Origin: Cymodocea nodosa
Lineage: Eukaryota; Streptophyta; Magnoliopsida; Alismatales; Cymodoceaceae
Assembly (NCBI GenBank): GCA_036874045.1
Contig: JAZBRI010000009.1
Span: 2,728,001 to 2,792,000, forward strand
DNA length: 64,000 nt
Direction: 5' to 3'
Position 1 is the stretch's first letter. Each line of letters starts with the position of its first letter. A model generated the notes under the pieces. The model saw only the letters and a list, made by a program, of their open reading frames with translations, searched no databases and was not told where the DNA came from. Shown in pieces: positions 1-55,827 of this stretch. The position numbers were made by a program, and so were the translations under genes.

Positions 1-299
1 ATGTTATTTACTAATTACTAGCACTAAGTAAAAATAAGAGAACTCGTTGAGGAACTGGAAAGAGAAGTAGTTGATTTAACTTCATTCGTCAATAACTTTT
101 ACACATTCAGAGCAAAACGTTAGACTAGTATGTAATTAACTTTTTGAAATTTACTATATATTGAGAGTTTATGAGAACATAAATTCGTTCTCCTAACACT
201 AAACGATTAGTCAAAACAACTACACATGATTATTTAATATAGAAGCATACTTGAAAAAGTTCTAAATTGAATTTAATAAATTTTTTTTGAAATTAAATT

Positions 300-615
300 T
301 ATCTTGGAGAAATAACAATTTTTAAGAAGGAGAAAATATAAATGATAGAAATTCCAGTTATGAAACATTAATTGAATAAAGATCTAGAATAAAGAAATTA
401 GAAAAAATAATTCAACAATTAAATAATCTTCTAGATCATGTGTTTGGAAATGTTGCCATTCAGAATCAAAACATGAATGAAAATATACTTCTTAGATAAA
501 AGGAATCAATAAAAATTAGACCTACAAGAAAATTGCCAAGTCAATCAGTAACGAACCCTTTGAATAGAATTGCTAATGAAATTGATACCTCCTATAGGAG
601 GAAAGCTGAATGAGG
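300..615 (+). pseudogene. gag-like C-terminal fragment of gypsy G
   Basis: The translation starts with a Ser-Trp-Arg-Asn-Asn type motif (SWRNN, here SWRNNNF), which is typical of the C-terminal part of Athila-type gag. It is followed by a charged helical stretch (IEKLEKIIQQLNN-like) and a proline/arginine-rich tail. It parallels 45110-45420 in element C. Several codons are stops, mostly of the TAA/TAG kind expected from CAA/CAG decay. The block lies 3' of where pol should be, which is unusual for a gag fragment and is the same in element C. Confidence 0.6.
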
Positions 616-893
616 TAGTATAATTATTAGAAAATATGTATATTATAGTAAATACAAAAAATATATATACAAAAGAAAAAAGAGAAAACATAAAAAAAAA
701 ATATAAAGAAGCTTTATTTATAGTTATTAGTTCTATAGAGTTATTATTTAACTCAACGAACTTAGTTTGTTGAGTTACGACCTAACACCACAGAGGTATC
801 CATAAGTAGCTATTAAATTTTATCTCTTTTGAATTTTGTTTTATGTTGTTGAATACAAAATTACAATAGATGAAATTAATGGAATTATGACTA

Positions 894-2003
894 GATGCAC
901 TGAAAGAAGTATTAAGTAATTTATTAGCTAAAGATTTATGTAGATTGTATTGTGTCTCAAGACAAATTAGAGAATGTGTTATAGAAAGATATTTTCATAG
1001 ACTACAAGCTACAAAGATGACCAACATTAGATATGGATTTTTATGGAAGTTATTTAGTCGTAATACAAACAATTATGAATACCTAAATATAGAAGAAATT
1101 ATTAAAATTCCACCCAATACATTAGAAGGAATAGATTATATCATGAGAATAGATGAATGATTGATCGTATATAGAACTAAACCAAGATATGTTATTCTGT
1201 TACTTAATATTTTTATTAGAAATCCTATCACTAGAGAAGAATGGAATATAGAAAGATCTAATATGTTTGAAGTATTAATTGAAAATTATGAGACAACCTT
1301 AACATTTTCTGATAGTAATTCAATGATTCTTGGAAAATTATTTTATTAGAGACTAATTGGAAATTGGGATGAAGGATTATGTTTAAGTGTTTATAATTTT
1401 ATGAATAAATTTTGGAACAAAAATGTTATGATATATCTAAGAGATAGAGCACTAGTTAATAATATTCATGTGATACTTTATGGGTATATATATTTAATCA
1501 TGGATATATCAATTACATTTAAATCTAATTTATATATAATGAGCATAGACAGTTATGATGAATTTATAGAAATATTAACTATACCTCAAGTTATAACTGA
1601 ACCACTATCTGCAGAATATGATAAAATTCAACTAGGAATATGGTATAGTAAATCTAATAATCCTACTTTATGTCTAGTAAGATGGTGAGATGACTTGATA
1701 AAATTTCAAAGATAGATAGTGAAAGACCTGAATGAATGGAAGTGGGAAGATGAGTATATTGAAATATATGTGGAAATAGAAACACCTACATCATCATGGT
1801 CGAGAAAAGGATCTCTATCTGCATTTCAATTCATTAATGGTAATACTCTCATATTTAGTGTCGATAATATACTATAAGTTTATAAATTAAAAAGACAAGC
1901 ATACTACATTAAAGTAGAATTAACAAGGAGAATAATGCCTAAAAGTTTTGCTTAGACTGACATGTTCATTCCATTTGTCACTACTTTTCAGTCATATTCT
2001 TAA
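894..2003 (+). pseudogene. F-box/F-box-associated-like ORF carried by gypsy G
   Basis: Frame 3 can be read from 894 to the TAA at 2001-2003. The first 40 codons match the F-box pattern: hydrophobic L-x2-L, then VLSNLLAKDLCRLYCVS. This helical motif binds SKP1 in SCF ubiquitin ligases. Further on, about codons 100-120, is an RNPIT-type motif followed by a Trp, and around codons 190-235 a 'gly-tyr-x-tyr-leu … ser-tyr-asp-glu' stretch. Both resemble the plant F-box-associated domain (the NPxTxxW motif). The ORF is broken by in-frame stops near 1158, 1347, 1686, 1713, 1875 and 1953. I found no frameshift over 1.1 kb, and several stops look like C-to-T or G-to-A changes of Gln or Trp codons. The homologue at 45602-46732 in element C has the same frame and length. 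The F-box call rests on motif reading, not on a search. Confidence 0.65.
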
Positions 2004-34285: not shown

Positions 34286-34850
34286 TCACATATGACCTGA
34301 TCTTTGTTTGATGGCAAACACAATGGTGCCATCTCTATAAGATCGAATCACTCCACCACAATAAGGTATTTCCTGTGATGTAGCATACCCTAGGCCATAT
34401 TTATTCCCATTTGATTGTTGAGATCCTATTATTTTATTTAATCCTTTTTGACCTTGTGTAAATTTACATATGGTATCTTTCAAATTTGATATAGTAGTTA
34501 ATAGATTTTTATTTTCATCTTTTAATTCACCGTTAACACAACTATACTTATCTAAATTTGATTTTAGATTTCTATTTTCAACTATAGTTGATTTTAATTT
34601 AGCAAATGAATTTTCTAAGCAATGATTTAATCTTTTAATTTCTTTTTTGAAATCTCTACACTTCACATATAAATTATCTACAGTAGATAGAAGATTGTTT
34701 ATGTCTAAATCATCATGCTCATTTTCTGAACTAGAGGAAGTAGAGCATACCTCTTGTGCTGTAAAACAAACATTGGTTGTAGCTTCATCTTCAGAATCTG
34801 ATGAACAGCTTGAAGAGCTACTGTCATCCCACGTAGCTTTGAGAGTCATT
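34286..34850 (-). pseudogene. gag C-terminal tail of copia B, after the insertion point
   Basis: The reading starts at the very edge of gypsy C. It has LKATWDDSSSSS, then a Ser/Glu/Asp-rich stretch and a coiled coil with regular Leu/Ile spacing (about residues 50-140), as in the same part of copia A (VTWDDTLEESESE). Removal of gypsy C and one copy of the 5-bp duplication joins this frame directly to the gag part at 50677 in the same register. This shows that the insertion split one gag ORF. Confidence 0.85.
34846..34850 (+). repeat. Target-site duplication of gypsy C (left copy)
   Basis: GTCAT here corresponds to GCCAT at 50677-50681. The single difference is a transition. The gag frame of copia B is continuous when C and one copy are removed, which confirms the 5-bp duplication. 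Confidence 0.8.
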
Positions 34851-37028
34851 GTTTGGAATGAAAAAGTGCATATTATTAACGGTTAAATGATGGTTAATTG
34901 CATAATATTTAGCTTATCATATGAGAAGTAAGCCATTATGTTATAATTGCACTATTATATGCTTTAATTGAAGAATCTGCTTAATTTAGGGGAATTAATG
35001 TTAATTTAGTACATTTTTGAACTGTCGGTAAGTTGCAAGCTGTGAAATTCTTAAGTATCCGAATTTTTTGATATTTCGGATAGTTATGTTTAACATACCA
35101 GACATATTTTGGACAGTTATGTTTAACAGACCGAACATATATTGGATAGTTATGTTTAAATTGCCGAATAGTTATATTTTAAAAGAATATTTTATTATTT
35201 CCTGAAGTACACGTGTCGAAACCATAATGCATGACTTAAGTGAACTTTCAGTGAGTTATCTATAACTATCCAAAATTGCAGTTGGGCATCAGATAGTTAG
35301 CCTTGTAATTCTCTGAAATCTCTTTTTATTTATAAAATAGCTAAGGACACGTGTCATGTTCTGGGAAAGTGCCTTAAGTGGATTTTCGGTGAGTTATCTC
35401 TAACTATCCGAAATGCATCTAAGCATCGGATAATTAGCTTTGTAACTCTCTGAAATGTTATTTTATGATTAAACTACTGTTGACACGTGTTGAGATCTGG
35501 TAGATTTACTTAAGTAAACTTTCGGTGAGTTATCTATAACTATCTGAAATGCATATGAGCATCGGATAGTTAAGTTTATAAGTATCCGAAATGCACCTAA
35601 GCATCAGATAGTTAAATTTATGCACATGCTTTATAGTTAAATCAACGAAGAAAGTCTGTTGAGTTATCTGTAACTCTACGGACTATATATTTTCTAATAT
35701 GCCACTATACAATTGCAGGAACAGATAGTTGGAAGAGAAAAATCACGTTTGCACATATCGTGCAGGAAAGAAATCATCGCCGTTGATACGAATGAAGGAA
35801 ATCTAACCGACCATTCAAGTAGAAGCAGTTACTACTGAAGAAATATAAAAGAAAAGAAGAAAAAAGAAGAAGGGTGTGATCGATGGGCGGACAGTGTGTG
35901 TAGAGGAGGATCAGCATCGCAATTCTCTGAAGTTCCACACCAACCATCATCATCACCACCATAATCACCAACCATCGGAGGTCTGTGAGGATACTTGCCT
36001 GATGTCGGGTCAATTCCGAGCCAAACACAGTGCCTGACAACCACTATGAGGAGTGGTCGCGTTGCGGGAAGGGAAACCATTTTCACCAAGCGCCGACTCA
36101 TATTTCAGGAGATCGTAAAGCTTTTAGCCTTGGCTTCGGGTTGATGCCTGTATGCTGTAGAGGAGATCATCTTGCAATTTTGGACTCGCGATTCTATAGG
36201 GAGAGGAGACAGAATTGTAAGTGGTTTAATTTTCAGTGGTGTAATCACGTTGCAAGTAGTGTCGGAAGTATTTACTATCAATTGAGATTACTTTACATTT
36301 CACCTTTCGCCAATTTCCATGTTCATATTAAAACAAAAAGACCAAAAACAATTTATCTAGGTTTGTATGTTGTATTTGAGTGTTGTATTGTTTGTATTGT
36401 ATCGTGATTAATGTTATCTTCGTCAATGTTGTGATTGTTTTATGTTGTTTTAGTTTTATAGTTTATTGAAATTGGTTTGTTCAAAAGACTTAAAGATTTT
36501 AATGGTTACTATTTGAATTATCTAAATGTTAGTATTGCCTAATGATAAATCTAATGTTAACTAACATTAAAGAGCTTAATTGATGTTATTTACAATCTAT
36601 GGAATCGCCCAATGGTTGACCGAATTCCTTTGTAAATAGCAGTATTAAAAAGAAAAGACAGGCTCGTGGAGTTAACTTAAGTCCACGAGGTTAGTCCGTT
36701 GAGTTAGTCATAACTCAACGAACTTTGTCCGTTGAGTTAACTATAATTCAATGGAGAGCTTGGTGAATATATAAATTTGATTATTAACAAACGAACAATT
36801 CTTAAGTTCTTCAGCAATTCCCTATGAGATCGACCTGTACTTGCACATTGATACAATAGACACTGTGCACTTGCAGTTAAAGTACAAATTGGAATTAATA
36901 TCTAAATTGTATTAAAGGTTTTTTGTTTACTTCTAAAAGAAAGAATAGGTATAAAGATAAATTAACTAAGTAAAAATAGAAGTAACAAATCCAAGTTTTT
37001 CTGGTGTAGTGCTGGAAAAACACAAACA
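34851..37028 (+). repeat. 5' LTR of gypsy C
   Basis: 2,178 bp, TGTTTGGAATG … ACACAAACA. TATA-like TATAAAAG at 35844-35851, with the likely R region after it. U3 (35030-35640) holds modules made of CACGTGT, CTTAAGT, TTTCGGTGAGTTA and TAACTATCCGAAA, with a GCATC(T/G)GAGCATCGGATAGTTA follow-up. 36660-36760 carries 'gttgagttagtcataactcaacgaac'-type inverted repeats. The 125-codon ORF at 36030-36407 lies across R/U5 and looks fortuitous. Confidence 0.95.
35844..35851 (+). promoter_or_regulatory. TATA-like box of the gypsy C LTR
   Basis: TATAAAAG stands in the same context (gaagaaatataaaag) in all five gypsy LTRs of the window: near 5490, 15147, 35844, 49490 and 56769. This conservation in otherwise diverged DNA supports a core promoter role. 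Confidence 0.6.
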
Positions 37029-37035
37029 AGTTTTA

Positions 37036-37053
37036 TGGCGTCGTTGTTGGGGA
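37036..37053 (+). promoter_or_regulatory. Primer-binding site of gypsy C (tRNA-Asp type)
   Basis: TGGCGTCGTTGTTGGGGA differs by three C-to-T changes from the Athila-type site TGGCGCCGTTGCCGGGGA, complementary to plant tRNA-Asp. It starts seven bases inside the LTR. Confidence 0.85.
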
Positions 37054-37118
37054 ATTGAATTGAATTGAATTAATTTAAGCAACTGTTAGAGCTGTTTCAT
37101 TTTAATAGCCAGAGTTGT

Positions 37119-39317
37119 GTGTTTTCTTCTGTAATTGAGAATATGGCATATGCTTATGCTCAAAGATTTTCGAAACCTGTAATTAGCATATGTGAATTCT
37201 GCAATTCTGAAGGACACAACATTTCTGACTGTTTGAAATTGAGACGTTTACAGATGGTTAGATCCCATGAACAACAAATGAATTATCTTCAGTATAATAG
37301 ATCTGAGTATGAGAATCTTATAGTTTACCCAACTAATGGTCAGTATAGAATGTGTAATATGTTGAGAGACACTGAAGTTTGGGATAGGTATGATAGACTG
37401 GAGCATAGTATAGAGCAAAACCTGGATAAATTGGAATACTTTATGTGTCAGCAACAAGAAGTCAACCAATTAAATTATAAGGAAGCATATTCAGAACCTA
37501 AAAAGGATATAATTTACGAAACTGAAAAAATCATAATGAAAATTGATCAAAAATTGAATGCAATGAAATTGGATGATCTAGAAAGAAAATTAAAAACATT
37601 AGACGAATATACAATGAAAATACAAGTTATGCAACAGGACAATGAAAATTATAATGTTATAAACCTACATAATTTGCAAAATATACAGCAAACAGAAAAT
37701 ACTAATGCAAGAGAATTTAAAGAATGCACTTTAAAACTAAAAACAATTGAAGATCTTAATCACGAAAATGATATACAAAAACATCATGAGAGTAATGAAA
37801 ATTTGGAAGATGTATGTGCAACATTAAGATCTGGAGCTGATATACCACCAAGAACTCAAAATGAAAATGATATGAAGGTAGATAAGAGTAAAAATCAAAA
37901 TGATAATGAAAATGTAATAGTTGAAAATCTAGAAATCACTGAAGAATCTGAATCTACGAATGAAACTAAAAATGATCAAACAAATCAACTGAAAGAAAAA
38001 GAGTCTTTGAAATCAAAATCTTTAGCACTCTATCCTAAAAGATTACAACAAATAATACCTGAAAAACAAGAGAAAATCAGAGAAATTTTTGAAAAAGTAC
38101 AAGTTAACATTCCTTTGTTAGATCTATTACAGAAAATGCCACATTGTGCTAAATTTCTAAAGGATTGGTGTACTAAGAAAAAAGAGCGAAAAGTTCTTAG
38201 AAATGTCTTTTTAGCTGAGCAAAGTAGTTCCCTATTTTTGCCACAAATTCCTAAAAAGTTATCTGATCCTGGAATCCCTGTTATATCATGTACCATAGGA
38301 AATACTATTCTAAAAAGAACCTTAATAGACTTAGGTGCAGGTATAAATGTTATGCCAAGTGATATATTTGCATCCTTAGGATTAGAAGGCTTAACTCCTA
38401 CTAGTACGGTTATTCAATTAGCTGATAGAAGTATAAGATACCGTAGAGGAAAAATAGAGGATGTCTTAATTAAAATCAAGAATTTTATATATCCTATTGA
38501 TATTGTAATTCTGGATTCCCAACAAATTAAGCATAAAAATAGTGATACATCTTTAATTTTGGGAAGGCCATTTTTAGCAACATCAGGGGTTGTTATAAAT
38601 TGTAAAACTGGAGTAATGAAGTTAGCATATGGTAATGAGGATACTCAATTAAATATTTTCAAACCAGAAAGGTTTGAAGAGTTAGAAATGTCCTTACATA
38701 CCATAGACTATTTAGAGGATGAAGGAGATATGTTAGATGATGTGATTCAAGAAGAATTAAATAGGCAAATCAACTCTGAAATTTTAGAAGAAAGTGAAAG
38801 CATAAATATAGAAGGAGATATGGAAGAAATTCATTTAAAAGATGATGATGTTCAATTAGGAGCTCTAGCTTCTGATGGGCAAAATTTAGAATTAAAACCT
38901 TTACCTCCTGAATTAACTTATATATTTCTGGAAGATAAACGAACCTGTCCAATCATTATTGCTTCAAATTTAAAAGAGGATCAAAGAGCTAAATTAAAAG
39001 ATGTAGTAAAAAGTTATAAAGAAGCAATAGGATGGACTATGATTGATATAAAAGGGTTAAGTTCAACTTTATGCTGTCACGACATATATTTAGAAGAGAA
39101 TGCTAAACTTGTTAGAATTCCTGAGAGGAGATTAAATCCAAACCTTAAAGAAGTAGTCAGGAAGGAAATAGTTAAATGGTTAGATAATGACATAATTTAT
39201 CCGATTTCTGATAGCTCGTGGGTTAGTCCAATCTATGTAGTTCCCAAGAAATCAGGATTAATAGTTATTAGGAATGAAAGTCAAGACTTGATCATTTATA
39301 AAGATTACAAATAGAAA
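37119..39317 (+). pseudogene. Zinc knuckle-protease-RT start of gypsy C
   Basis: A 731-codon open frame. The MAYAYAQRF start is at 37143. A complete CCHC knuckle, CEFCNSEGHNISDC, lies within the first 40 residues. A coiled-coil, Lys/Glu-rich region follows (residues 90-300). The aspartic protease has TLIDLGAGINVMP (about residue 405), a flap-like region and ILGRPFLATSGVV. The RT start is VSPIYVVPKKS near residue 700. The frame stops at 39315 because the RT palm, catalytic box and RNase H are deleted, and the sequence jumps to the pre-integrase linker. No capsid-type gag domain precedes the knuckle, which is unusual. This copy could not make its own cDNA. Confidence 0.85.
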
Positions 39318-39325
39318 AATCAAAT
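39300..39325 (+). other. Deletion junction removing RT and RNase H in gypsy C
   Basis: Compared with gypsy F, the sequence passes from the 'gattataaag' of the RT fingers (F: about 18555) straight to 'ttacaaatagaaaaatc' of the RNase H-integrase linker (F: about 20145). F's stretch is about 1.6 kb, of which about 0.5 kb is F's own duplication, so roughly 1.1 kb is missing. Short A/T-rich identity at the joint suggests end joining or template jumping. Confidence 0.8.
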
Positions 39326-40690
39326 ATTGAAATTAAGGGTAATTTTCCTGATGAACAATTAATGACCATCAACACAATACCTTGGTATGCAGACATAGTT
39401 AATTATTTAGTTACTGGTCTAACACTTAAGGATTGGAATAGACAGGATAAGAAATTGTTTTTCTAAAGAGTAAAATATTACTATTGGGAAAACCCATACT
39501 TATTTAAGAAATGTCTTAATCTGGTTTTAAGGAGGTGTGTTCCAGAAACTGAATATCTGAGCATATTGTCTTTCTGTCATGACCAAGCTATTGGAGGGCA
39601 TTTTGGTTCAGGGTAAACTGCTGTAAAAATTCTGCAATGTGGGTTTTATTGGCCAACACTATTCAAAGATGTTCATAAATATTGCTTAAGTTGTTTAAGA
39701 TGTCAACAAATAAGAAGAATATCAAAGAGGAATATGATGCCTCTTAATCCTATTGTTGAGTTTGAAATCTTTGATGTGTGGGAAATAGATTTTATGAGTC
39801 CATTTCCTATGTCTAATCAATTTAATTACATATTGTTGGGGGTGGATTGTGTATCTAAATGGATAGAAGCTATTCGTACAAAAACTAATGACAACAATGT
39901 GGTAATGCAATTTATAAGAACAAATATATTTGCCAGATTTGGAATACCTAAAGCTATTATCAGTGATAGAGGAACTCATTTCTGTAATAGAAGTTTTGAA
40001 GCCTTAATGAAGAAATATGGACTAAACCACAAAATTGCAACATCATATCATTCGCAAACAAGTGGACAAGTAGAAAGTGCAAACAAACAAATTAAATTAA
40101 TCTTAGAAAAAGTAGTAAATCCTATTAGAACAGATTGGGCTAATAGATTGATAGATGCACTTTAGGCTTATAGAACTGCTTATAAAACGAGCTTAGGTAT
40201 GTCACCTTTTAGGCTAGCAGATGGAAAAAGTTGTCATTTAACTTCTGAAATAGAACATAAAGCTTGTTGTGCATTAAAAACTCTGAACACTAATTTAAAT
40301 CAAGCTGCTGAAAATAGAAAAATGCAATTAATTGAATTATAAGAATTTAGAAATGAAGCTTATTCGAAGACTGTAAGAGAAAAAGAAAAAATTAAATTTT
40401 GGCATGATAGAAAAATTATTCCTAAAAGCTTTGAAATAGGATAAGAAGTATATCTTTATATGGCTAGACTACATAACCATTCGGGAAAATTAAAATCTAG
40501 ATGGGCAGGACCTTACATAGTTCGAAATATTTATCCTTATGGAGCTATTGAAATTGAAAATCCTAAAATCAGAATATATTTAAAGTAAATGGACAAAGAC
40601 TGAAACCTATTCTAAAAACACCAAAAAGCTCCTTTGGAATTATAGAAGAAGTCAGAGTAGAGGACTACTCGAGCTTTACTTAGTAAGAAA
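39320..40690 (+). pseudogene. Integrase of gypsy C
   Basis: Same layout as in F: HDQAIGGHFGSG…CLSCLRCQQ (zinc domain), EIDFMSPFP (Asp 1 kept), IISDRGTHFCNRS (Asp 2) and SGQVESANKQ (Glu). All three acidic catalytic residues are present, unlike in F. The intact stretch is 39734-40165. Stops lie before and after, including a TGG-to-TAG change at about 40164. The C-terminal part has SRWAGPYIVRNIYPYGAIEI near 40500 and no chromodomain. Confidence 0.85.
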
Positions 40691-40735
40691 TCAATTTTAG
40701 GTTTATAAAGAAAAAAAAAAACATTAAAAAAAATA

Positions 40736-40766
<31 letters not shown>

Positions 40767-41329
40767 AAAAATCGTTGCGGTTCAATCGATTGGATCCATC
40801 GGTATGACCGGAACATAAAAAATATGTATATTAATATTCAGAAAAAATGTTGGTTTTACCGAAACATAGTATCGGTTCAATCGGAAAAAAAGAAAAAAGA
40901 AAAAAAAAAAATATATTAGGTCTAACCGAAACATAGTATCGATTAAACCGGTAAAAAAAAAAAACCAGAAAAACTATTATCTATAGTATATTTATTGTTA
41001 TATCTGTTTGTACAAGGAGTCCGTTGAGTTATGCTTAACTCAACGAGCTTACTCCGTTGAGTTATGCTTAACTCAATGAGCTTACTCCGTTGAGTCTTGA
41101 GTTAATTAACGAGCTTATTCCGTTGAGTTAACTGTAACTCAAGGGAGTACTGTAGCTAAGACCGTGGATAAAATAGTAATAATTGGTTCGGGAAATGACC
41201 CGATTACTCGCCTAAACTTAGGGCTTATTTAAACTAAAACCTAGGGTTTTGGGGGCATTATTCGGCAAATCATTTAGAATCTAGAACAGTAGAAATTAGA
41301 GTGATTCTATGTTGTTGTGTAACTCCACG
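40691..41329 (+). repeat. Non-coding spacer of gypsy C with (TA)n, CGGTT repeats and GTTGAGTTA hairpins
   Basis: (TA)n at 40737-40758. 'atcggttcaatcgg' and 'ggtctaaccgaaacatagtatcg' units at 40775-40965, as downstream of integrase in F. Three near-identical tandem units of ccgttgagttatgcttaact at 41020-41110, each able to fold. A TATTTAAAC box (41227-41234) stands about 95 bp before the ORF3 start codon and could be an internal promoter. Confidence 0.55.
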
Positions 41330-43552
41330 ATGAGGAAGATGATGCCTAAATTCTGGGAAGAGGCAGTGGACACTGCATAGTTTCTGAAGGAATCTGAAGA
41401 ATGGCACATGCGGCAAAAGATCCAGAATACAACAAGAGAGAAAGAGCTATAAAAGGTAGAATCAGAACTCTTTAACTTGAGGAATGTTTTGGTTGAGTTA
41501 GAAATATAGATACCATAGATAATGGAGACACGGAGTAGAGTGGCAACTGGAATTGCAGTAAGTAAAGAAAGAAAGATCCGACCAAACAATGAAGTAGCCC
41601 TAGAATTAATCCAACGTAAGTCCTGACTCTGGTTCAAAAGACGAATCTATAGACGAGCTAGATGGGCGATCTGGGAGCAAGAAAGGAAAGAAAATGAAGA
41701 AGAGGCAACTGAAGAACAGGAGGAACCAACTACTGAAAGACCTATTCCTGAGGAACAGTAGTTAGTACCTCTAGTTCAGCCAACAGAGCCATTGCCACGA
41801 GTTGCATTTGCTTGGTCGAGAACTAAAGAAGAAGAGAAAGAATTTACTAGCTTGGTTAAGACAGCAAGAGACCAAGGTGATACTCAAGAGATAGCTATGG
41901 CTAAGGCACATATTTTATATGATGTCATTAAGAAAAAAAGGGTCGAAGAAAGGATAAGAGCCCAATACAAAATAAAAGTTGAACAGTATCAGACAGCAAC
42001 TAAATTAAGTGCTGCAGGAGAGGTTAGTCCTTCGAGACTAGTAGTTATAAAAAGAGTTAAACAGGAAGAGCTAGTACCTGTGGCTCGAAGGCCTGTAGAG
42101 CCTACTTTTGTAGATTTAATTTTAGAAGATGAAGAAGAAGAACAGGTACAACTAATCAGAAAAAAGAAAGGAAAAGAAAAAGTGCTTGAATATGAAGAAA
42201 TTAAATCTGAAGTACCAATTTTTACAGGGCCCGTGGAGAAAATTTTTATTAACCTATTATCTGATTCTAAGGAGGAGTAGGAGGAGCTGCAGCAACAGGA
42301 GCAAAGAAAAGAAGAAAATCAGGTTGAAATTAGTCTACAGTCTGTACAAGAAAGAATAGAAATTAGGGCAGAAACTGAATTGCCCGTGACTCCATCCCAA
42401 TCTGTTACAGAATCAGAAAGAATAGTAACAGAACAGATTGGTAGTCAGGAGGAAAAAGAAAGAGCAGAAAATGAAGAGGCTGAAAGAAGCCATTTGGACA
42501 AAAATAATTTCAGAGATTCCACTAAAGAGCAAGAAACTCTTCAGCAGTTTATGGAGAGAATTCAAGATAGAGTGGAGAGTTCTACCGGCTCACCACCACA
42601 AATAGAAACAGAAATTCCGAAATTTGTAGAAAATGTTCAAATGCAACCTATAGAAGAGGAAGAGCTAGAGCAAACCCCTTTGGAGCAACAAAGTCACCTT
42701 CCTGACCCGACTGAAACAACAATTTTGAATGAAGTACATTTTTGTAGTCAGGAAGCTTATACGAAATACCAAGAAATAAGGGGTTACAACATTATTTACA
42801 GTAGACCAGTAAATTGGGATGGAATGTTAGAAATCAAAGATTTATTTGAATTCCGAGGTCTATTGCAATTCATTTCTCAAGAAAGAGGGTATGTAGTATA
42901 TGAGAATTTAGTGCCCTGTTTTTATGCAAATTTAAGAGAAGGAGAAGGAGGATTAATTTCAAATGTGGAGGAAGCTGATGTACAGATAACACCAGAGCTT
43001 CTCCACAACATTTTTGGTTTAAAGAATGAAGGAATAAAATTTTTGGAAAATACAACTGCAGTTGAGTGGACTGAACAGGAAATTAAGGATTGTTTAGTTA
43101 TCAATCCTGGTGTGCCATTATTAAATAGATTGAAGCATTTAAATGGTAAAGCACACATGGTAGCTAACATTCTGATTAAGAATGTCTATCAACGACAAGG
43201 CCATGACATAGAATTAAGGCAATTTGTTAAATGGGCCACATATACAGTTGTAAATAAGATCCAAATAAATTGGTGTGCAGTTTTTATCTCCAAGCTGAAA
43301 AGAGTGAAGAAGAAATTATTTTATGGAGATTTGATTCCACTGCTAATGGTGGACTGTATTGATTTCATGAAATGGGCATAAAAAAGGATCAGATCTAGAA
43401 CCATTTCAGTGAAAGAATACAGAAATTTTGTAGCTACAGAACTAGCTATACCTTATGGAGGAATTACGGGAGCAGTAGAAAAGATTAATTAATTAGAACT
43501 TCAATTAGAAAAACTCCAGAAGGAAGTAGATGAACTTAGGCATAGAGATTAA
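41330..43552 (+). pseudogene. ORF3 of gypsy C ('putative plant transposon protein'-type)
   Basis: A single frame from ATG 41330 (MRKMMPKFWEEAV) to TAA at 43550, about 740 codons, broken by stops at about 41378, 41450, 41759, 42278, 43379 and 43490 but with no frameshift that I can see. The N-terminal half is acidic, Glu/Gln-rich and probably disordered. The C-terminal half (42740-43380) has a folded look: IKDLFEFRGLLQF, NIFGLKNEGIKFL, HMVANILIKNVYQRQGHD, KIQINWCAVFISKL and KKLFYGD. These motifs recur in order in the copia D protein (60158-61504 region). A short coiled coil ends it. The position after pol is that of env-like genes in Athila elements. I see no signal peptide or membrane segment. 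Confidence 0.7.
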
Positions 43553-44572
43553 ATTGTATTGTTCGTCTACTTGTATAAAATTGTATGAAATTGTATGATG
43601 TACTTGTAATGTAATTGATTCATATTAATGAATGTAAATTTTTCAGATGCAATTTTCATACGTGATTTGGATGTGAAAATGAAATGAATGTATTGACTGT
43701 TATATATATTTTGTGAAATATTATGAAAGAATGTTTAACAGATTTACAATTTGCTGAATGACAGGATAAATGCTTAAAAATTTCTGCATGTTGCAAGGTA
43801 AAATGTAAATTCTGCATAACATAAAATGACCTGCAAGTTAAATCTTTATATAATATTCAGATTTAAACGAATTTTAATCAAAATGATGCATTAATGACAT
43901 AGATTTAACTTTATTTCAGTTAGTAGAATGAAAAAGAAAAAAAAGCAGAGAGGAACTTATGAGAGTAAAACTTAGAAGTTGCCAAGTGTTAACTCAACAA
44001 AGTTAGTCCGTGGAGTTAGCAACAGTAACCGATTGTGTTCCGTTGAGTTATATGTAACTCAATGAGGTTATTTCATGGATTAAGCAGAACAATTATTCTT
44101 TTAACCACAAACGAAACTTCGTAGGTTTAGTGGTTACCAAAATTTGAAATTAGTAGTGGAACATGTACCCATAAAAATAGGAACCATGATGCACGTTGCA
44201 AGACACGTTCTTGCAACGAGATTTATTCACTTTATGAATGTGCAGTATATATATAAAAAAGAATGTTATTTACGAGTTACCAGCACTTTTAAAAGAAAGG
44301 AGAATGCGTTGGAGTACTTGGAAGGAGAAGCAGCTGATTCAACTTCATTCGACAACAAATATTTATTGAATGGAAAGCTTCAGACTGGTATGTAATTAAT
44401 CTTCTGCTATTTATTTATGAGCACATGGATCCGTTGTCCTAGCACTAAACGATTAGTAAGAATACCTACCCAGGAATTTTCATCGTAGAGGAGTACTAAA
44501 AAATTTTCTGAACTAAACTTTAACAAAATTCTTTGGGGTGTAGTTAACCTTTCTTTAAAAGAGAACGTAGAA
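43553..44572 (+). other. Spacer of gypsy C between ORF3 and the gag-like block
   Basis: AT-rich. It has 'gttgagtta' inverted repeats at 43990-44075 and a perfect 10-bp inverted repeat (CGTTGCAAGA, 5-base loop, TCTTGCAACG) at 44194-44218. A weak 83-codon ORF (44144-44395) lies across that hairpin. It ends near a GTATGTAAT donor-like site at 44391. The last part is shared with the left edge of element G (1-290). Confidence 0.45.
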
Positions 44573-45420
44573 ATGGCTACTCCAGTAGAAAAACCATTAG
44601 GAGAGATTCTGTATCCTGAATTAGTTGATGAACCTTCATGTATTCGATTACCAAACTTTGAGGGAGATAGGTTTGAATTGAAATCTAATTATATTAGTCA
44701 ATTGCCACATTTTCATTAGTCAATTGCCACATTTATAATTTATGAAGGCATAGATGTTCCAACAAAATCTTTATTAGAATCTACTTGTCAAAATGGATTT
44801 TTAAAGTTATGTAGTGAAGAAGCATGGGCATATTTAGAAAACTTTGCAAAAAGAACTACAGTGGGAAAACTTGGTTGAAGCTATTGCAGATAAAAAAATA
44901 TTGCCAAGTGGAATGCATGAAATAGATTCAAATACTATGCTTGAGGTGAAATTAAATGAATTAACAAAGAAAATAGAAGAGTTATCATTAAATCAAAAGC
45001 TAGCAGAAAAGAATGCAAACATAAATGACTTAGATATTATTTATGCTAGAAACCAGAGAGATAACTTGGGAAATTCTTATCATCCTAATTGGAGAAATCA
45101 CTTGAATTGATCTTGGAGAAACAACAATTTCCAGGGAGGAGAAAATATAAATGAGAAGAACATAAGTTATGAAGTATTAATTGAACAAGGATCTAGAATA
45201 GAGAAATTAGAAAAGATAATCCAACAATTAAACAATCGTCTAGATTTTGTATTTGGAAATGCTGCAATTCAAAATCAGAATAGAAATTTACCACTTAGAT
45301 AGAAGGAACCAATGGAAGTTAGACCTACTAGAGGATTGCCAATACAAGCAATACCTAACCCTATCAATAGATCTGTTAATGAAATTGATACCTCTTCTAG
45401 GAGGGTAGCTGAATGAAGCA
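44573..45420 (+). pseudogene. Relocated gag-like block of gypsy C, central capsid part missing
   Basis: ATG 44573 opens MATPVEKPLGEILYPELVDE, then CIRLPNFEGDRFELKSNYI, which resembles the N-terminus of Athila-type gag (…IVRP…ANNFEIKP…I). The capsid core (the retrotrans_gag region with FLE…C…WL) is absent. A 17-bp piece, agtcaattgccacattt, is doubled at the junction (44696-44736). Then the C-terminal gag part follows: YEGIDVPTKSLLEST, EEAWAYLENFAKRT, NELTKKIEELSL, YHPNWRNH and SWRNN. The frame is broken by stops and at least one frameshift near 44845. In normal Athila elements gag is the first gene; here it lies after ORF3. Confidence 0.65.
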
Positions 45421-45601
45421 ATATAACTGAAGCAATTATCTGTATGTATATATGTTTTTATTTTTAGTTAATAGTATCGTAGAGTTAATTTTTAACTCAA
45501 CGAACTTAGTTCGTTGAGTTATGCCTTAACTCCACGAGGGTGTGAAGTAGTTATGTTAATTTTTGTCTCTGCTGAATTTTTGTTTGTGTTATACAGAATC
45601 G
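45421..45601 (+). promoter_or_regulatory. Leader of the F-box-like ORF: hairpin and possible 3' splice site
   Basis: A strong inverted repeat, AACTCAACGAAC followed by GTTCGTTGAGTT, covers 45495-45522. The same hairpin stands at 752-776 before the F-box ORF of element G. A polypyrimidine-rich run ending in ATACAG at 45591-45596 looks like a plant 3' splice site just before the F-box frame. In G it reads ATACAAAA, so it is not conserved there. Confidence 0.35.
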
Positions 45602-46732
45602 ACAAATGGAATTGATGCAATTACCTTGGATGCACTAAGGGAAATACTGAGTAATTTATCAGCTAAAGATCTATGCAGGTTGTGTTGTGTATCAAAGGAA
45701 ATTAAAAAGTGTATTGAAGAAAAATATTTTCAAGGACTATAAGCTGCAAAAATGACTAAGATTAGAGATGGATTTATATGGAGGTCATTTAATCGTAGTT
45801 CAAATACCCATGAATATCTGGCTATGGAAGAAACTACTAGAATTCCACCCAATACATTAGAAGGCATAGATCATATTATGGGGATAGATGAAGGATTAAT
45901 CATATACAGGACGAGACCAAGGTATGCAAGTTTATTATTACCTGATATTTTGATAAGAAATCCTATAACAGGAGATGAATGGAATATAGGAAGACCTAAT
46001 AGATTTGAAGTACCAACTATAAATTGTGGGTTGGCTTTAATATTTTCTAATAAAAATTGTACCATTCCTAAAAAATTATATTATTGGAGACCTACAGTAA
46101 ATTGGGATGAAGATTTATGCTTAAGTGTGTATAATTTTCTAAATAGATCTTGGATTGAAAATACTGTGATATATTTAGGACTGAAATCATTAATTAACAA
46201 CATGCATGTCATACTTGATGGATATGTATATCTAGTCACAGATATATCAATAGCATTTGGATCTGATTTATACATAGTGAGCACAGATAGTTATGATGAA
46301 TATATAGAAATCTTACCTATACCGAGAGAAATAGCTAAACCACCATCTACAGAATTTGATAAAATTCAAATAGGAATGTGGTGTAATGAATATGATGATC
46401 CTACTTTATGTATGATAAGATGGTGGGATTAATTGATGAAATTTCAAATATGAATTATGAAAGACATAAATGAATGGAAGTGGGAAGAGGAATATATTGA
46501 AATAGATGTAGAAATAGAAACTACTACATTACCTTGGAACCGGAAAGGATCCCTTTCTGCATTTCATATCATTAATGGTAATACACTTGTATTTGAAATT
46601 TATAATATATTACACGTTTACAAATTAACAAGGAACAAGAACTGCATTAAAATAGTATTAATAGCAAGAAGAACTATGCCTAAAAAGTTTGCTTGGACTG
46701 ACACGTTTATTTCATTTATTTCTACTTTTTAA
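45602..46732 (+). pseudogene. F-box/F-box-associated-like ORF carried by gypsy C
   Basis: Frame 2 reads from 45602 to TAA at 46730-46732, about 376 codons. The F-box is at residues 9-45: LDALREILSNLSAKDLCRL, then CCVSKEIKKCI. The longest clean part is 45752-46432. The middle has an IRNPITGDEWNIGRP stretch, like the NPxTxxW core of the F-box-associated domain, then VILDGYVYLVTD and VSTDSYDEYIEILP. F-box proteins are substrate receptors of SCF ubiquitin ligases; the variable part chooses the target. Only three stops interrupt it (45737, 46430, 46451), with no frameshift. At each of these places element G has either a sense codon or a different stop. No ATG precedes the F-box in frame, so a spliced leader or a lost start is possible. 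Confidence 0.7.
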
Positions 46733-48493
46733 TCATGTTCTTAAGCTGTGATTTTGTGTGTTTAATGTTGTGTGTATTCTGCATTTATTTTTAGAAAAAA
46801 AAAGGGAATTTTTTTTTTAGTTTTCATTTTTATTTTATAAAAGAAAAAAAAATAAAATATCAATCCAGTTTGTTAGTATCTGTTTTGAGAAACCAACTGG
46901 CTTGCTTGTGAGCCACCAAAGGTATAGGAGCTTGGGTTCCATACAAGACACTAAATTATCAATATCTATTAAATATTATTTTGTTATATATACTGGGTTT
47001 ATCTATGAATGAAAAGTTTTTCAGAATCAAAAATCGGAATATGCAGAAGGAGATACAAATGAAACAAGGTATGTAACTAATTACTCATCCTGAATTTTAA
47101 TCAACAAACCTGTAGCCATGCCTGCTTCAATTACTATACTTATTGTCAAATCTTTTACATTGAGGGCAATGCAAAATGTAGGTATGGGGGGGAGGTAATT
47201 GAAGTAACAGCCATATAAGTTTGTTAATTAAATGAATTAAAATGGTACTACAAAGTTTTGAGGAAATTGAAAATTTTTATGAACTTGCTGTAACTATCCA
47301 ATAATTGAGACTATAAAATTTTTCTAAACTGCTTGAATGTTATATTTAGAAGGCTATATAAGATGCTATAGAATTTACTATTTATGCAAATCTAGATATA
47401 GTATCTTATGTTTTTTCTGAATTTCATGAGTTTAACAATTTCACAATTTTAAAATGAAATCAGAATGCTTAATGAAAAATCAGTGAATTATCTAAAGTCC
47501 TGAAAGAGTTGAGATGTGAATTCTAGATTAAATGAAACACATATGATTAAAGATACATTTAATTTGACTGATTGAACTTGTGGAATGATTTATGTATAGA
47601 TCTTATTAAACTACAGAAAAAGTATGAGCTTATTGTTATGGATTCATATTTTCAGTAAATGATAGAAGCAGGACTATATGAGATTGGTGTTTTACTGCAT
47701 CTGTATTAATGAAATAGGTACATATACAGTATGTGATTAATGTTTTGTTTTGTGTGTATTGTGATTAAAAAAAAAAAAAAGGAAAAATTTTGAGAGTTTA
47801 TTGACTTGTTTGATCATGAGCCTTTTGTACTTGAGCAGATAGGTATGTAAGGATTGTTGACTTGAACAAGGACTCTTGAAATCTGGCAACCTAAGATCCT
47901 GATCAGATCTGGGATTGTTGATTGAAAGCTCGTTATATGAGTACATTAGAAAACTCTTGTATGATTCAAGCTTGTCAAATTAACTTTTAAAGTACAAAAA
48001 AAGAAAAAAAAAACATATACTGTTCTAAAAAGATACAAGTGTTTTGTGAAATACAGATATCTTATGAATCGAGCATATTTTTTGTTATCTAGAATTGCTG
48101 AAATATGAATCTGGAATTGACTTTTGAAGTTGTTTAATGGAGATACAATTCTTTATTCTACTTGTCTTAATCAGATTGAATTGGATTATACTTTGATTCG
48201 TATGTTGTTGAAATTTCTTCTAGAAATCTTATTGAAAAATTCAAGATGACAGATGATGAAAAGAAGAACAAACAATAATATAATTAACATTTATGTGATG
48301 ATGATATACTTTGTATGTAATTTGCATATATTCTAAGTATATTTGCAGGTTGATTACTAAAACATACATAATATATTTTTATGCTAAACAGAAGAAAAAC
48401 AAAGGGGAAGAATTAATTCTAGCACTTTTAGAAAGATCAATTAATTAGATCTTAGTTTGCTAAGGGACTAGCAAAATTTAGGTATGGGGGAAG
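46733..48493 (+). other. 3' non-coding region of gypsy C with two polypurine tracts
   Basis: The first tract, ggtatgggggggagg, is at 47183-47197, in the 'attgagggcaatgcaaaatg' context typical of the 3' end of such elements. The second, ggtatgggggaag (48481-48493), touches the 3' LTR and is the functional candidate. Between them, 47355-48350 is the segment also found in copia A and D. No ORF. A poly-A-rich run at 47766-47780. Confidence 0.75.
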
Positions 48494-50676
48494 TGTTTGG
48501 AATGAAAAAGTGCATATTATTAACGGTTAAATGATGGTTAATTGCATAATATTTAGCTTATCATATGAGAAGTAAGCCATTATGTTATAATTGCACTATT
48601 ATATGCTTTAATTGAAGAATCTGCTTAATTTGGGAGAATTAATGTTAATTTAGTACATTTCTGAACTATCGGTAAGTTGTAGGCTGTGAAATTCTTAAGT
48701 ATCCAAATTTTCTGATATTTCAGACAATTATGTTTAACATAACAGACATATTTCAGACAGTTATGTTTAATAGACCGAACATGTATCAGATAGTTATGTT
48801 TAAATTATCGAACAGTTATGTTTTAAAAGAATATTTTATTATTTCCTGAAGTACATGTGTCGAAACCATAATGCATGACTTAAGTGAACTTTTGGTGAGT
48901 TATCTATAACTATCCGAAATTGCAGCTGGGCATCGGATAGTTAGCCCTGTAATTTTTCGAAATCTCTTTTTATTTATAAAATAGCTGAGGACATGTGTCA
49001 TGTTATGGGAAAGTGACTTAAGTGGATTTTCGGTGAGTTATCTCTAACTATCCGAAATGCATCTGAGCATCGGATAGTTAGCTCTGTAACTCTTCGAAAT
49101 GTTATTTTATGATTAAACTGCTATTGACACGTGTTGAGATCTGGTAGATTTACTTAAGTGAACTTTCGATGAGTTATCTGTAACTATCCGAAATGCATCT
49201 GAGCATCGGATATTTAAGTTTATAAGTATCCGAAATGCACTTGAGCATCGGATAGTTAAATTTATGCACGTGTTTTATAATTAAATCAACGAAGAAAGTC
49301 CGTTGAGTTATCTGTAACTCCACAGACTATATATTTTCTTATATGCTACTATAGCGATTGTAGGAACAAACAGTTGGAAGAGAAAAACCACGTTTGCACG
49401 TATCGCGTAGGGAAAGAAATCATCGTCGTTGATACGAATGAAGGAAATCCAACCGACCATTCAAGCAGAAGTAGTTACTACTGAAGAAATATAAAAGAAA
49501 AGAAGAAAAAAGAAGAAGGGTATGATCGATGGGCAGACAATGTGTGCAGAGGAGGATCAACGTCGCAATTCTCTGAAGTTCCACACCAACCATCATCATC
49601 ACCACCATAATCACCAACCATCGAAGGTCTGTGAGGATACTTGCTTGATGTCGGGTCGATTCCGAGCCAAACACAGTGCTTGACAACCACTATGAGGAGT
49701 GATCGCGTCGCGGGAAGGGAAACCATTTTCACCAAGCGCCGACTCATATTTCAGGAGATCGTAAAGCTTTTAGCCTTGGCTTCGGGTTGATGCCTGTATG
49801 CTGCAGAGGAGATCATCTTGCAATTCTGGACTCGCGATTCTATAGGGAGAGGAGACAAAATTGTAAGTGGTTTAATTTTCGATGGTGTAATCGCGTTGCA
49901 AGTAGTGTCGGAAGTATTTACTATCAAGTGAGATTACTTTACATTTCACCTTTCGCCCATTTCCATGTTCATATTAAAACAAAAAGACCAAAAACAATTT
50001 ATCTATGTTTGTATGTTGTATTTGAGTGTTGTATTGTTTGTGTTGTATTGTGATTAATATTATCTTTGTCAGTGTTGTGAGATTGTTTTATATTGTTTTA
50101 GTTTTACAGTTTATTGAAATTGGTTCGTTCAAAAGACTTAAAGATTTTAATGGTTACTATTTGAATTATCTGAATGTTAGTATTGCATAATGATAAATCC
50201 AATGTTAACTAACATTAAAGAGCTTAATTGATGTTATTTACAATCTGTGGAATCGCCCAATGGTTGGCCGAATTCCTTTGTAAATAGCAGTATTAAAAAG
50301 AAAAGACAAGCTCGTGGAGTTAACTTAAGTCCACGAGGTTAGTCCATTGAGTTAGTCATAACTCAACGAACTTTTTCCGTTGAGTTAACTGTAATTCAAT
50401 GGAGAGCTTAGTGAATATATAAATTTGATTATTAACAAACGAATAGTTCTCAAGTTCTTCAGCAATTCCCTGTGGGATCGACCTATACTTGCACACTGAT
50501 ACAATAGACACTGTGCACTTGCAGTTAAAGTACAAATTGGAATTAATATCTAAATTGTATTAAAGGTTGTTTGTTTACTTCTAAAAGAAAGAATAAGCAT
50601 AAAGATAAATTAACTAAGTAAAAATAGAAGTAACAAATCGAAGTTTTTCTGGTGTAGTGCTGGGAAAACACAAACA
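48494..50676 (+). repeat. 3' LTR of gypsy C
   Basis: 2,183 bp, TGTTTGGAATG … ACACAAACA, with the same module order and TATA-like box (about 49490) as the 5' LTR. It is followed by GCCAT and the rest of the copia B gag. Confidence 0.95.
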
Positions 50677-51600
50677 GCCATCTTCTTTTTGTCCTTCAAT
50701 CTCTTCTTCTTATCTCCTTGATCCTCTTCTGTCTGAAATGGATAGAAGGTCTGTATGTGCCCTTGCTTTTTACATTTGAAACATGTAGGGACAGTTCTTT
50801 TAGAAGAGCTGGGCTTATTATTTTTCTTCATAAACTTTCTGAAGTTCCTTGCCAACAACATGATGATCTCATCATCATCTGAGCTTGGAGCTTCTTTTGT
50901 AGATGGAAATGTTATTTCCTTTTTCTTTTCAGTTTTCTTTTCAGCAACTCCTTCTTACTCTTTCCAGTCCTTCATCTGAACTTCGTGGGCTAGAAGATTG
51001 CCCAACAATTCTTCAACTGTGTAGTTGTTGAGATCCTTGGAATCTTGAATTGATGTGGACTTCTATTTCCACTCAATAGTTAAGCTCCTCAAGATCTTCT
51101 GTACCTGTTCACGTGAAGAGAATTCCTTTCCCAAGCCTTTCAAACTGTTAATGATTTCAGTAAATCTTGAAAACATTTCAGTTATGTTTTCATTGTCATT
51201 CATTTTAAACAGTTCAAGTTTTCTCAACAGGATACTAATTTTTGTATCTTTAACTTGGCTTGTACCTTCGTGAGTAACTTGAAGGATTTTCCAAGCCTCA
51301 TGAGCAGACTTACATGCAGATACTTTATTATATTGATCAGTAGTTAGTGGACAATAAATGGCATTCAGCCCTTTAGGATCCAACTAGATGAGTTTCTCAT
51401 CCTCCTCAGACTAGTTCATAACATCACTGGTTGGAAGTGTAGTTCTAAGAACAACAATCTTCTAGAGTTTAACATCAGAACTCGTAAGGAAGCACTCCAT
51501 TCTATTCTTCCAATAGTTATAATTTGAATCATCGAATAGAGGAGGTCTGTGAATGTTTTGTCCCTCAACAAATTGAGCCATAAATCTAGATGGTTAAATC
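50677..51600 (-). pseudogene. gag N-terminal and zinc-knuckle part of copia B
   Basis: Minus strand from about 51590: MAQFVEGQNIHRPPLFDDS, then YWKNRMECFL and the UBN2 core (51383-51063: DTKISILLRKLELFKMND, EQVQKILRSL). Then come a Glu/Lys-rich linker and the knuckle CFKCKKQGHIQTFY, whose last Cys has become Tyr. A basic tail ends at the insertion of gypsy C. Stops occur near 51420, 51385 and 51063. Confidence 0.9.
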
Positions 51601-53848: not shown

Positions 53849-55419
53849 GCTTTGTGATGTGTAAAATGCTTAAACTCCACACAAAAAGATAAATATTGTT
53901 GATGATGTTGTTTACCTCATAGATATTATATACTTATTATAAATATTTGAGTAATATCTAAACTGCTGCATAAGATACTATGTATTCATTGTAATATTAT
54001 AGTAGTATCTTATTGATTTTAAGTATTTTGTCAAGTTTGATGGTTTTCAAAATTTTAAGTGGAAGTGAAAATGAAAAACATTAAATACCTCTGAAATCCT
54101 GAAATTTTGATTAAATGTTTTCTTTGGATCAATGAAAGTGCATATGATCATGCATGAATTTGACTTGATTGATTAAACTTGTAGAATAATTTATATGTAA
54201 ATCATCTTAAACTATTAATCAACAATATGAGCTTATTGATAGTGATTCATATTTTTAGTAAAATCATAGACGTAAAAATTGTATGAGATTTGTGTTTTAT
54301 TACATCTGTATTAATGAGATACATATATACTGTGTTTAAAATGAAAAGTGCTTACAAAGTAAAATTTTTTGAGAGTTTATTGATCAATTTGATCACGAGC
54401 CTTTTGTACTTGAGTAGATAGGTATGTAAGGATTGTTGTTCTGAAAAAGGACTCTTTAAATCTAGCAACCTAAGGTCCTGATCAGACTTGGGATTGTTGA
54501 CTGAAAGCTCATTACACAGGTACATTAGAAAGCTCTTGTATGATTCAAGCTTTTTAAGCTAACTTTTGAAAAAAATTATCAATATTTACTATTTTGAAAA
54601 GATAAAAGTTGTTTCATTAAATATAGATATCTTTGAATCGAATATAGTTTCTACCAATATGATTACTAATTTATTAAATCAACTTTAGTACTTTTAAAAA
54701 TGTTTATTTGACTTACAGTCTTTTATTCTCCTTGAGTTAATCATATTAAGTTTAAAGTTATGTTTTGATTCATATACAGTTGGAGTTGATTCTTGAAATC
54801 ATTTTTTGATGAATTTAGAATAATAGAAATCTTTTGAAAAGAAATTTTAAAGGGTAGCTATAATTAACATCTATTTTATACAAATATATTTTGTATGTTA
54901 TTGAATATATTTGAAGTATATTTGTAGGGGGAGGAATTACAATGTCCAAAATAGATTAATATAATTTAGAATATATATTTTAATTAATCTGAGTTTAGTC
55001 CTCTTAAGATCTTAATGAAATAATTTAAAAGACAAACAACTATTTTAGATTCATAAAAAGAGAATATTAGAATAGTTTACAATGTTCTCAAGATGATGTT
55101 ATATATGTTAGTTTTTAGCTTGTGTGTTGTTCGAAAGGTTTCAGTAGAAAGCATCCGAAACTTGTTTGTTTGGTAAAGTATACTAATTAGACGTTATGTT
55201 ATGTAAAGTAACGTGTAAAACTACCTCTAGACAACGTTTTACTCGTTAGGTTAGTTAACTCAACGAGTTATGCTTAAATATTTTGGGCATCTTGATTGAA
55301 TAAACTATATTCAATATTCATTTAAAATCTAAACCCAACTTCTATACACGTTGAGTTAGTCGCCAAAAACCCTATTTAAACATGTATTACATGAGAACTT
55401 AGGTTATTTCATAACCTTT
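53849..55419 (+). other. Non-coding segment of copia A between pol and the env-like ORF
   Basis: AT-rich without ORFs. About 53970-54935 is homologous to gypsy C 47355-48350 and gypsy G 2655-3640, and to the minus strand of copia D at 62545-63510. The best block is 54370-54550 (gagccttttgtacttgag, taggtatgtaaggattgttg). A purine run, tgtagggggagg, is at 54924-54935. The end of the stretch has 'aactcgttag'/'cgttgagtta' repeats (55240-55350) and CCCTATTTAAAC (55370-55381), a TATA-like box shared with copia D. Confidence 0.75.
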
Positions 55420-55827
55420 GTGTCTGAAAACCTTTCCTGCTTATTCCTGTTACAACCTACGACGACGTTCCCCAAGTTTAACAAAGGTCATGGCAGAGGC
55501 AAAGGAAGAGGCAGAGGAAGTGTAAAAGGCAAAGAAATTGAGGTAGATGATGTTCCTCGTACTTGGTTTAAAAAGATTTTGCATGTTGACGAAAGGTTAG
55601 CTCAAATATATCATGACTACTTCTTTTCTAAAGAAATACTTGATGAAGTTAGACAAGAACTTCAACATACTACTGAGAATATATATTATATGGGTATTAA
55701 AAGTAAATATGACAAAGAATATCGCATGAAATGTATGGAAATAGCATTTTTGGAACAATATGCTAAATATTTGAAAAAAGGAGTAGGCTCATCAAATAGA
55801 ATTCCTCAAACCCCTATCAGTGGTACA
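55420..55827 (+). pseudogene. Env-like/ORF3 start of copia A, cut by gypsy LTR E
   Basis: It matches the N-terminus of the copia D protein: a basic Gly/Arg/Lys-rich run (GKGRGRGSVKGKEIE), then VPRTWFKKILHVDERLAQIY, FFSKEILDEVRQEL, YRMKCMEIAFLEQYAKYLKK and GVGSSNRIPQTP. The start ATG of D (62029) is ACG-TTC here, so the initiation codon is lost. The frame runs directly into LTR E at 55828. Function unknown. The basic start suggests nucleic acid contact or a nuclear/nucleolar signal, by inference only. Confidence 0.75.

Follow-up and report, generated by a model that had tools for sequence, protein, structure and literature searches.

Plant LTR retrotransposons commonly carry extra genes, but only a few of these can be assigned an activity, and what most of them do is obscure. 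A stretch of 64,000 nucleotides of the Cymodocea nodosa genome, which is the window referred to throughout, raises the question of whether an element of this kind can possess an F-box gene of its own, or whether the F-box is a piece of host sequence in transit. The first-pass annotation of the window had claimed that a gypsy element, here element C, carries a gene of the F-box/F-box-associated type between a gag-like block and its 3′ LTR. Table 1 lists the features located in element C, together with those of element A, which carries a second copy of the same unit.

Table 1. Positions in the window of the features of element C and of the second copy of the unit in element A.
Feature	Position	Strand	Remarks
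Element C	34850-50676	+	Ty3/gypsy LTR element; 2.2-kb paired LTRs
Left target-site duplication, GTCAT	34845..34849		right copy is GCCAT
5′ LTR, TGTTTGG...CACAAACA	34850..37028	+	LTR pairing
Primer binding site, diverged	37036..37053	+	compared with relative L043, which has TGGCGCCGTTGCCGGGGA
ORF1: zinc knuckle (37191-37232), protease, RT start	37074..39311	+	domain scan; capsid domain absent ahead of it
RNase H remainder and integrase (rve within 39617-40162)	39289..40670	+	domain scan
Palindromic CCGTTGAGTTA/TAACTCAACG repeats before ORF3	41021..41146	+	fold z -9.1
ORF3 (open pieces 41762-42277, 42281-43378)	41300..43500	+	weak PF20167 match below cut-off, 26.5 vs 45 bits
Palindromic repeats before gag/F-box unit	44008..44066	+	fold z -4.6
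TATA-like site TATATATATAA	44246..44256	+	TATA(T/A)A in 20/21 aligned rows
Leader exon end, ATG...CTG (MESFRL), first codons of spliced F-box frame	44370..44387	+	seen in spliced copies
Intron GTATGT...TATACAG, containing gag capsid block	44388..45596	+	precisely absent from 16/16 spliced copies examined
Capsid block of gag, within intron; internal deletion in element C	44574..45420	+	relatives' gag pieces match PF03732
Palindromic repeats before F-box exon	45493..45538	+	fold z -6.2
F-box exon; F-box domain 45626-45727; three internal stops	45597..46732	+	ORF list, PF00646 match
Polypurine stretch ahead of 3′ LTR	48483..48492	+	by eye
3′ LTR	48494..50676	+	LTR pairing
Right target-site duplication, GCCAT	50677..50681		one mismatch vs left GTCAT
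Element A: gag remnant (1-623), F-box frame (891-2000), family LTR from ~4865	1..2000	+	DNA repeat of C

Element C and its gene order

Element C is one clean insertion. Its LTRs are 94% identical (K80 0.0595), corresponding to an age of ~2.3 or ~4.3 million years at the plant substitution rates in common use, 1.3e-8 or 7e-9 per site per year. The flanks are the two halves of a minus-strand copia element, with pol and integrase on the left and gag on the right, the latter identified through its similarity to a copia gag at 24439-24885. When the flanks are joined at the 5-bp duplication (one mismatch between its copies), the empty site is restored as an uninterrupted copia frame of 278 amino acids, and the F-box therefore lies inside one bounded element, as the first-pass annotation had it from the LTRs and the target duplication.

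The element reads 5′ LTR, primer binding site, knuckle-protease-RT, RNase H-integrase, ORF3, gag, F-box, 3′ UTR and LTR. The paired LTRs, the target duplication, the primer binding site and the pol order PR-RT-RH-INT are those of Ty3/gypsy elements, and element C lacks most of the RT relative to element B. ORF1 has 1374 protein matches at E ≤ 0.001, and the named ones among the 120 listed are plants (Vitis, Malus, Humulus, Zingiber and others). The protease match of element C falls below the cut-off (21.9 vs. 24.3 bits) and its integrase lies above it, as do both RNase H and integrase in element B and in relative L044. In the scanned pieces no further RNase H family, which would include an additional archaeal-type one, was found, and pol matches plant gypsy proteins. 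The primer binding site of L043, TGGCGCCGTTGCCGGGGA, we take to be of the tRNA-Asp type, as in Athila elements. The F-box carrier is probably an Athila-like Ty3/gypsy family. Element B also contains a tandem duplication of ~520 nt (93%) in its RT/RNase H region, at window positions 18862-19907.

In elements of the Athila type, gag is upstream of pol in one frame. Here the capsid domain lies downstream of ORF3 and the knuckle stays with the protease. The gag-like block of the first-pass annotation is indeed gag next to the F-box, but it is the capsid part only, displaced downstream of pol. The profile PF03732 is matched by gag pieces of L042 (29.3 bits) and L043 (32.7 bits; cut-off 24.1), and a more C-terminal gag piece of L044 does not match it. 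Across the window and 15 loci, the C-x2-C-x4-H-x4-C knuckle was found three times (element C, L029 and L043), each time in the upstream ORF, and never in a downstream gag, two of these loci being spliced and lacking gag. No other LTR element is known to us in which the capsid part of gag follows pol and ORF3, and none with this order is reported in the titles and abstract openings among the literature matches listed. In the related sequences D and E (window 54131-55836, and 63340-59779 on the minus strand), a region resembling the UTR that follows the F-box stands directly before an ORF3-like gene, so subfamilies may vary in how their 3′ genes are arranged.

The F-box exon and the intron ahead of it

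The F-box frame (45602-46732) is present, with three internal stops and one terminal stop. Its first 46 codons match the F-box profile PF00646 (E 1.4e-9, 37.9 bits, cut-off 20.5) and also the F-box-like profile PF12937 (E 6.8e-6, above the curated cut-off). The PF00646 search had been put forward in the first-pass annotation, with the lack of a significant hit as the outcome that would speak against the gene, and 7/7 aligned relatives match as well. The frame of element A (~891-2000) does so narrowly (E 2.8e-4, 21.1 vs. 20.5 bits), and the two elements are 74% identical over 713-3588 and 45457-48332. The F-box-associated half of the claim did not hold up equally: FBA_1 (PF07734) is matched weakly by two of the seven relatives, with scores of 18.0 and 13.8 bits where the cut-off is 21.1, the native 229-aa and 92-aa pieces of element C match no Pfam family, and the NPIT..EW motif is a resemblance only. 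An F-box-associated domain in the C-terminal part is therefore only suggested.

Searches of a protein database, from which the source species is possibly absent, returned nothing at E 0.01 for the native 229-aa piece and nothing at E 10 for a profile of the seven relatives. A search of the PDB likewise gave nothing at E 10, five pattern matches in viral contigs yielded no confirmed case, and scans of the window with Rfam at gathering thresholds and for tRNAs found nothing. The structure model, built from an alignment of four open pieces from the window, was unusable (pLDDT 32.5). The F-box motif scores well above the cut-off, which makes SKP1 binding a natural prediction.

In element C there is no in-frame ATG ahead of the F-box, and the first codons are out of step with those of relatives. 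An ATG at 44370, a donor at 44388 and an acceptor ending at 45596 create an ATG-to-F-box frame across the junction, and L018 and L041 lack exactly window positions 44388-45596. With a 166-nt query over the joined exons of L018, 40/40 scored matches (L018 included) cross the junction, and the GT-AG junction is at the identical position in all 16 spliced copies, comprising L018, L041 and 14 that were fetched. The leader ends in M-(E/K)-(S/N)-F-x-L, in frame with the F-box exon once joined, in 19 of 21 aligned rows; these were selected through a fuzzy motif where the exon ends, and two of them, L001 and element C, are one and the same copy. Since L018 and L041 retain the upstream ORF3, at least these two look like spliced full-length RNAs. 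The spliced RNA would also be the F-box message, and with gag serving as the intron, a given precursor can produce gag or F-box but not both. Retroviruses splice their accessory genes, and the precursor of element C resembles that arrangement.

The three repeat stretches ahead of the downstream ORFs of element C fold far below shuffled sequences. They are possibly transcription-factor sites, or RNA hairpins that mark each transcription unit. The near-palindrome CCGTTGAGTTA...TAACTCAACG, with one mismatch allowed, also occurs in family LTRs (36696-36739, 49300 and 50344-50387) and at 55256 and 62135. Further donor-like GGTATGTAA sites are found in the 3′ UTR after the F-box (window ~47068 and ~47842) and in relatives L039, L040 and L042-L044, where they perhaps serve another spliced message.

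The best explanation of the whole, and one that we consider likely, is that an Athila-like family has an accessory F-box gene that is spliced, maintained and directed at the host SCF machinery. A TATA-driven promoter upstream of gag, to which the TATA site and the repeats point, would make the messages. Splicing of the element RNA would fuse the short leader with the F-box exon, and the product would be reverse transcribed and inserted into the genome; taken at face value, the tree described below has this happen more than once. The protein is predicted to bind host SKP1 through its F-box, and its C-terminal part may bring a host or element protein to the SCF ubiquitin ligase, benefiting the element. 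As to the target, the leading guess is counter-defence, for example against a silencing factor, and the main alternative is the element's own proteins. An anti-silencing role is plausible by analogy, as the host F-box proteins FBW2 and SGIP1 are described as acting on AGO1 and SGS3 (PMC11371168). If instead the protein acts on the element's own products, it could limit gag or integrase, with splicing setting the gag:F-box ratio; the position of gag in the intron, such that one precursor cannot yield both products, fits such control, which we nevertheless hold to be rather unlikely.

Spread of the family and selection on the frame

A first look at the same genome (374.6 Mb, 28 contigs) gave 4151 candidates with F-box DNA, 4219 with PF00646, 4955 with the splice junction and 3653 with the 3′ UTR, all unverified and not to be read as copy numbers. 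For F-box DNA, the 40 scored matches, with element C among them, are spread over 17 contigs at 93-100% identity. The PF00646 search produced 150 scored matches, all above the cut-off, and when 30 loci from the top of these were fetched, 29 carried the element F-box by tblastn; the exception, L013, is an F-box/kelch gene of host type that does not resemble it. In a sample of the 20 best 3′-UTR copies, chosen regardless of the F-box and representing the subfamily of element C, the full F-box is present in 15, one of which is element C itself and two others of which give mutually the same figures. The other five are deletion derivatives: three kinds of internal deletion have taken away part of gag along with the whole F-box or the greater part of it. 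These kinds occur in L065 and L074, in L075 and L077, and in L066, so that two are found at two places each; the derivatives may multiply, or their paired places may be segmental duplicates. The F-box gene is a family-wide feature, not a transduced fragment in one or a few copies. The claim that a gypsy LTR element carries a genuine F-box gene stands.

The search for intact copies that the first-pass annotation had proposed finds some: most sampled copies are broken, and six of 52 have no interruption anywhere in the frame, the sampling of these 52 having favoured open frames and high F-box scores. None of the 20 copies of the 3′-UTR sample is open throughout, the 1.5-kb flanks having cut some starts. 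In L029 (~944-951), an F-box copy is joined at ~window 46283 to a family LTR end, primer binding site and pol start, a junction formed by rearrangement or template switch. L009 and L039 were considered as small gag/F-box elements and rejected, as their LTR junctions look like nested insertions.

Selection was assessed by setting observed N/S counts against those expected if each change landed by chance on any site with a matching trinucleotide context. Plain Nei-Gojobori ratios are not used as evidence, as values of 0.74-0.91 came from noncoding pseudo-frames too; in the context-matched test, such pseudo-frames give ~0.8-1.1. Over 52 copies, a sample in part selected for its F-box scores and long open frames, normalised N/S is 0.685 (0.659-0.720) in frame vs. 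0.946 and 1.164 in the shifted frames, and nonsense changes stand at 0.34 vs. 0.98 and 1.29. The RNase H-integrase control, which is small (5 copies, 10 pairs), gives 0.578. With five deep copies left out, private changes are neutral (1.01-1.05), those shared by 2-4 copies give 0.75-0.85, and those common to at least five copies give 0.53-0.66, with 0.80-1.24 for the same class in shifted frames.

A second sample of 35 recent copies was not chosen by F-box score or open frame. It was drawn by DNA similarity to the F-box region of element C (7), by the junction (14) and by the 3′ UTR (14), and five copies without the full F-box and one duplicate were dropped. Here shared missense is 0.73 (0.53-1.02), or 0.82 when the F-box domain is left out, and the first value is no lower than that of one shifted frame (0.72-0.80). 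Shared nonsense is strongly depleted, with two changes seen (0.19-0.25), and private changes give 0.84-0.87 with intervals reaching 1. Between elements A and C, normalised N/S is 0.71 (0.60-0.85), or 0.75 (0.63-0.91) without the F-box domain, with intervals that are somewhat narrow since each change is counted in both directions; nonsense is 0.23-0.27, and the shifted frames give 0.92 and 1.23. Element C was picked beforehand for its frame, and A was found only as a DNA repeat of C. The differences between A and at least 90% of the 35 other copies give 0.70 (0.53-0.95). Purifying selection acted on the frame during the older history of the family; the nonsense depletion suggests the like for more recent times, where the missense test is not decisive. 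A dN/dS near 1, which the first-pass annotation had named as telling against the gene, is thus not seen across lineages, and the missense of recent copies, taken alone, does not differ significantly from neutrality.

These data also bear on plain gene transduction, in which a host F-box fragment was picked up and multiplied as neutral cargo. Plant LTR elements often contain host genes that they have captured (PMC3726574), and a neutral cargo would sit well with the broken state of most sampled copies and with a missense depletion that is not significant among recent ones. The F-box is, however, common to lineages ~26% apart, at the same place behind the same gag block, and the nonsense depletion (0.23) and N/S (0.71) of the A-C pair, beside shifted frames near or above 1, argue against a neutral cargo; we judge transduction improbable.

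The accessory gene of the preferred reading would leave spliced copies by way of RNA. The tree has 57 rows, of which 54 differ from one another; 16 rows are spliced, 32 retain the intron and 9 are unclear. On it the label "spliced" needs seven changes, all forced by well-supported branches. Spliced copies are scattered among intron-bearing close relatives, and a single origin is found in 0/200 bootstrap trees. It seems that spliced RNA has been copied back repeatedly, or that the spliced state has also spread by recombination; the label changes may partly reflect recombination between RNAs and not repeated splicing. That the spliced copies are one non-autonomous deletion lineage, and not products of splicing, is very improbable: other deletion derivatives of the gag/F-box region do recur in the genome, but the exact GT-AG ends in all 16 spliced copies examined, the close kinship with intron-bearing copies, the bootstrap result and the frame formed across the junction all argue against it. 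Equally hard to credit is a separate gag and F-box element nested inside an unrelated gypsy element, for which the highly unusual place of gag after pol and the nested insertions that interrupt some copies could be cited, since element C and L043 (with internal deletions) have the same order within one LTR pair and L041, L042 and L044 have parts consistent with it.

Known systems and what the gene may mean

The family of element C resembles Athila, Calypso, BAGY-2 and Diaspora in pol type and in an extra ORF after pol (PMC7264820), and in a primer binding site that we take to be of the tRNA-Asp kind. Splicing is reported for BAGY-2, where it gives an env-like message (PMC7264820, PMC1142308). 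Unlike these elements, element C has the capsid part of gag after pol and ORF3, an F-box gene and a gag-containing intron. In Grande, Retand and RIRE2, too, an extra gene is found across the family, after pol and ahead of the 3′ LTR, and the extra genes of these elements are not described as F-box genes. One gene of Grande reportedly uses its own promoter.

Among 13,863 elements surveyed, the most prominent domains were the plant mobile domain, Transposase_28 and Athila ORF-1 (PMC6317226). Orchid Ty3/gypsy elements carry an m6A demethylase domain and parallel element C in that a regulatory domain of host type has become a fixed extra gene of a large gypsy lineage, the domain there being an RNA demethylase and not a ubiquitin-ligase receptor (PMC9289625). 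Polerovirus P0, an F-box protein likewise encoded by a genetic parasite, in this case an RNA virus, assembles an SCF ligase whose target is ARGONAUTE1 (PMC11371168). P0 is likened here to the element protein by role. Nematodes also combine F-box and transposon parts, but there host genes took up transposase parts, whereas here the element owns the F-box gene (PMC12062965).

The first-pass annotation knew of no LTR element family defined by an F-box gene, and none appears in the titles and abstract openings of the open-access literature, among the matches listed. The word F-box is absent from the main text of PMC7264820, PMC6317226, PMC11963269, PMC9289625 and PMC3726574. What the present analysis adds to that annotation is the splicing, the displaced and split gag, and the genome-wide abundance.

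Lentiviral accessory proteins, which come from spliced genes, use cullin-RING ligases. Both they and the element F-box would couple a spliced retroelement gene to a host ubiquitin ligase; the lentiviral ones are adaptor proteins of other folds, and the likeness is one of analogy only. We offer tentatively the possibility of a lentivirus-like economy, in which a split gag has a capsid part that doubles as an intron, a spliced accessory gene turns the host SCF on factors that restrain the element, and splicing switches between making particles and disarming the host. If true, it may be through the success of such an element that most of the top-scoring F-box matches of the genome arose.

With an F-box gene that is conserved and spliced, the idea that transposable elements exploit the ubiquitin system of their hosts, as some viruses do, can be put to a direct test. 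Were gag indeed shifted to a place after pol and treated as an intron, the canonical gag-pol order of LTR elements would no longer hold here, and counts of F-box genes in such genomes would be inflated by element genes. An abundant element with an F-box gene of its own suggests that the element may steer the protein-disposal machinery of its host.
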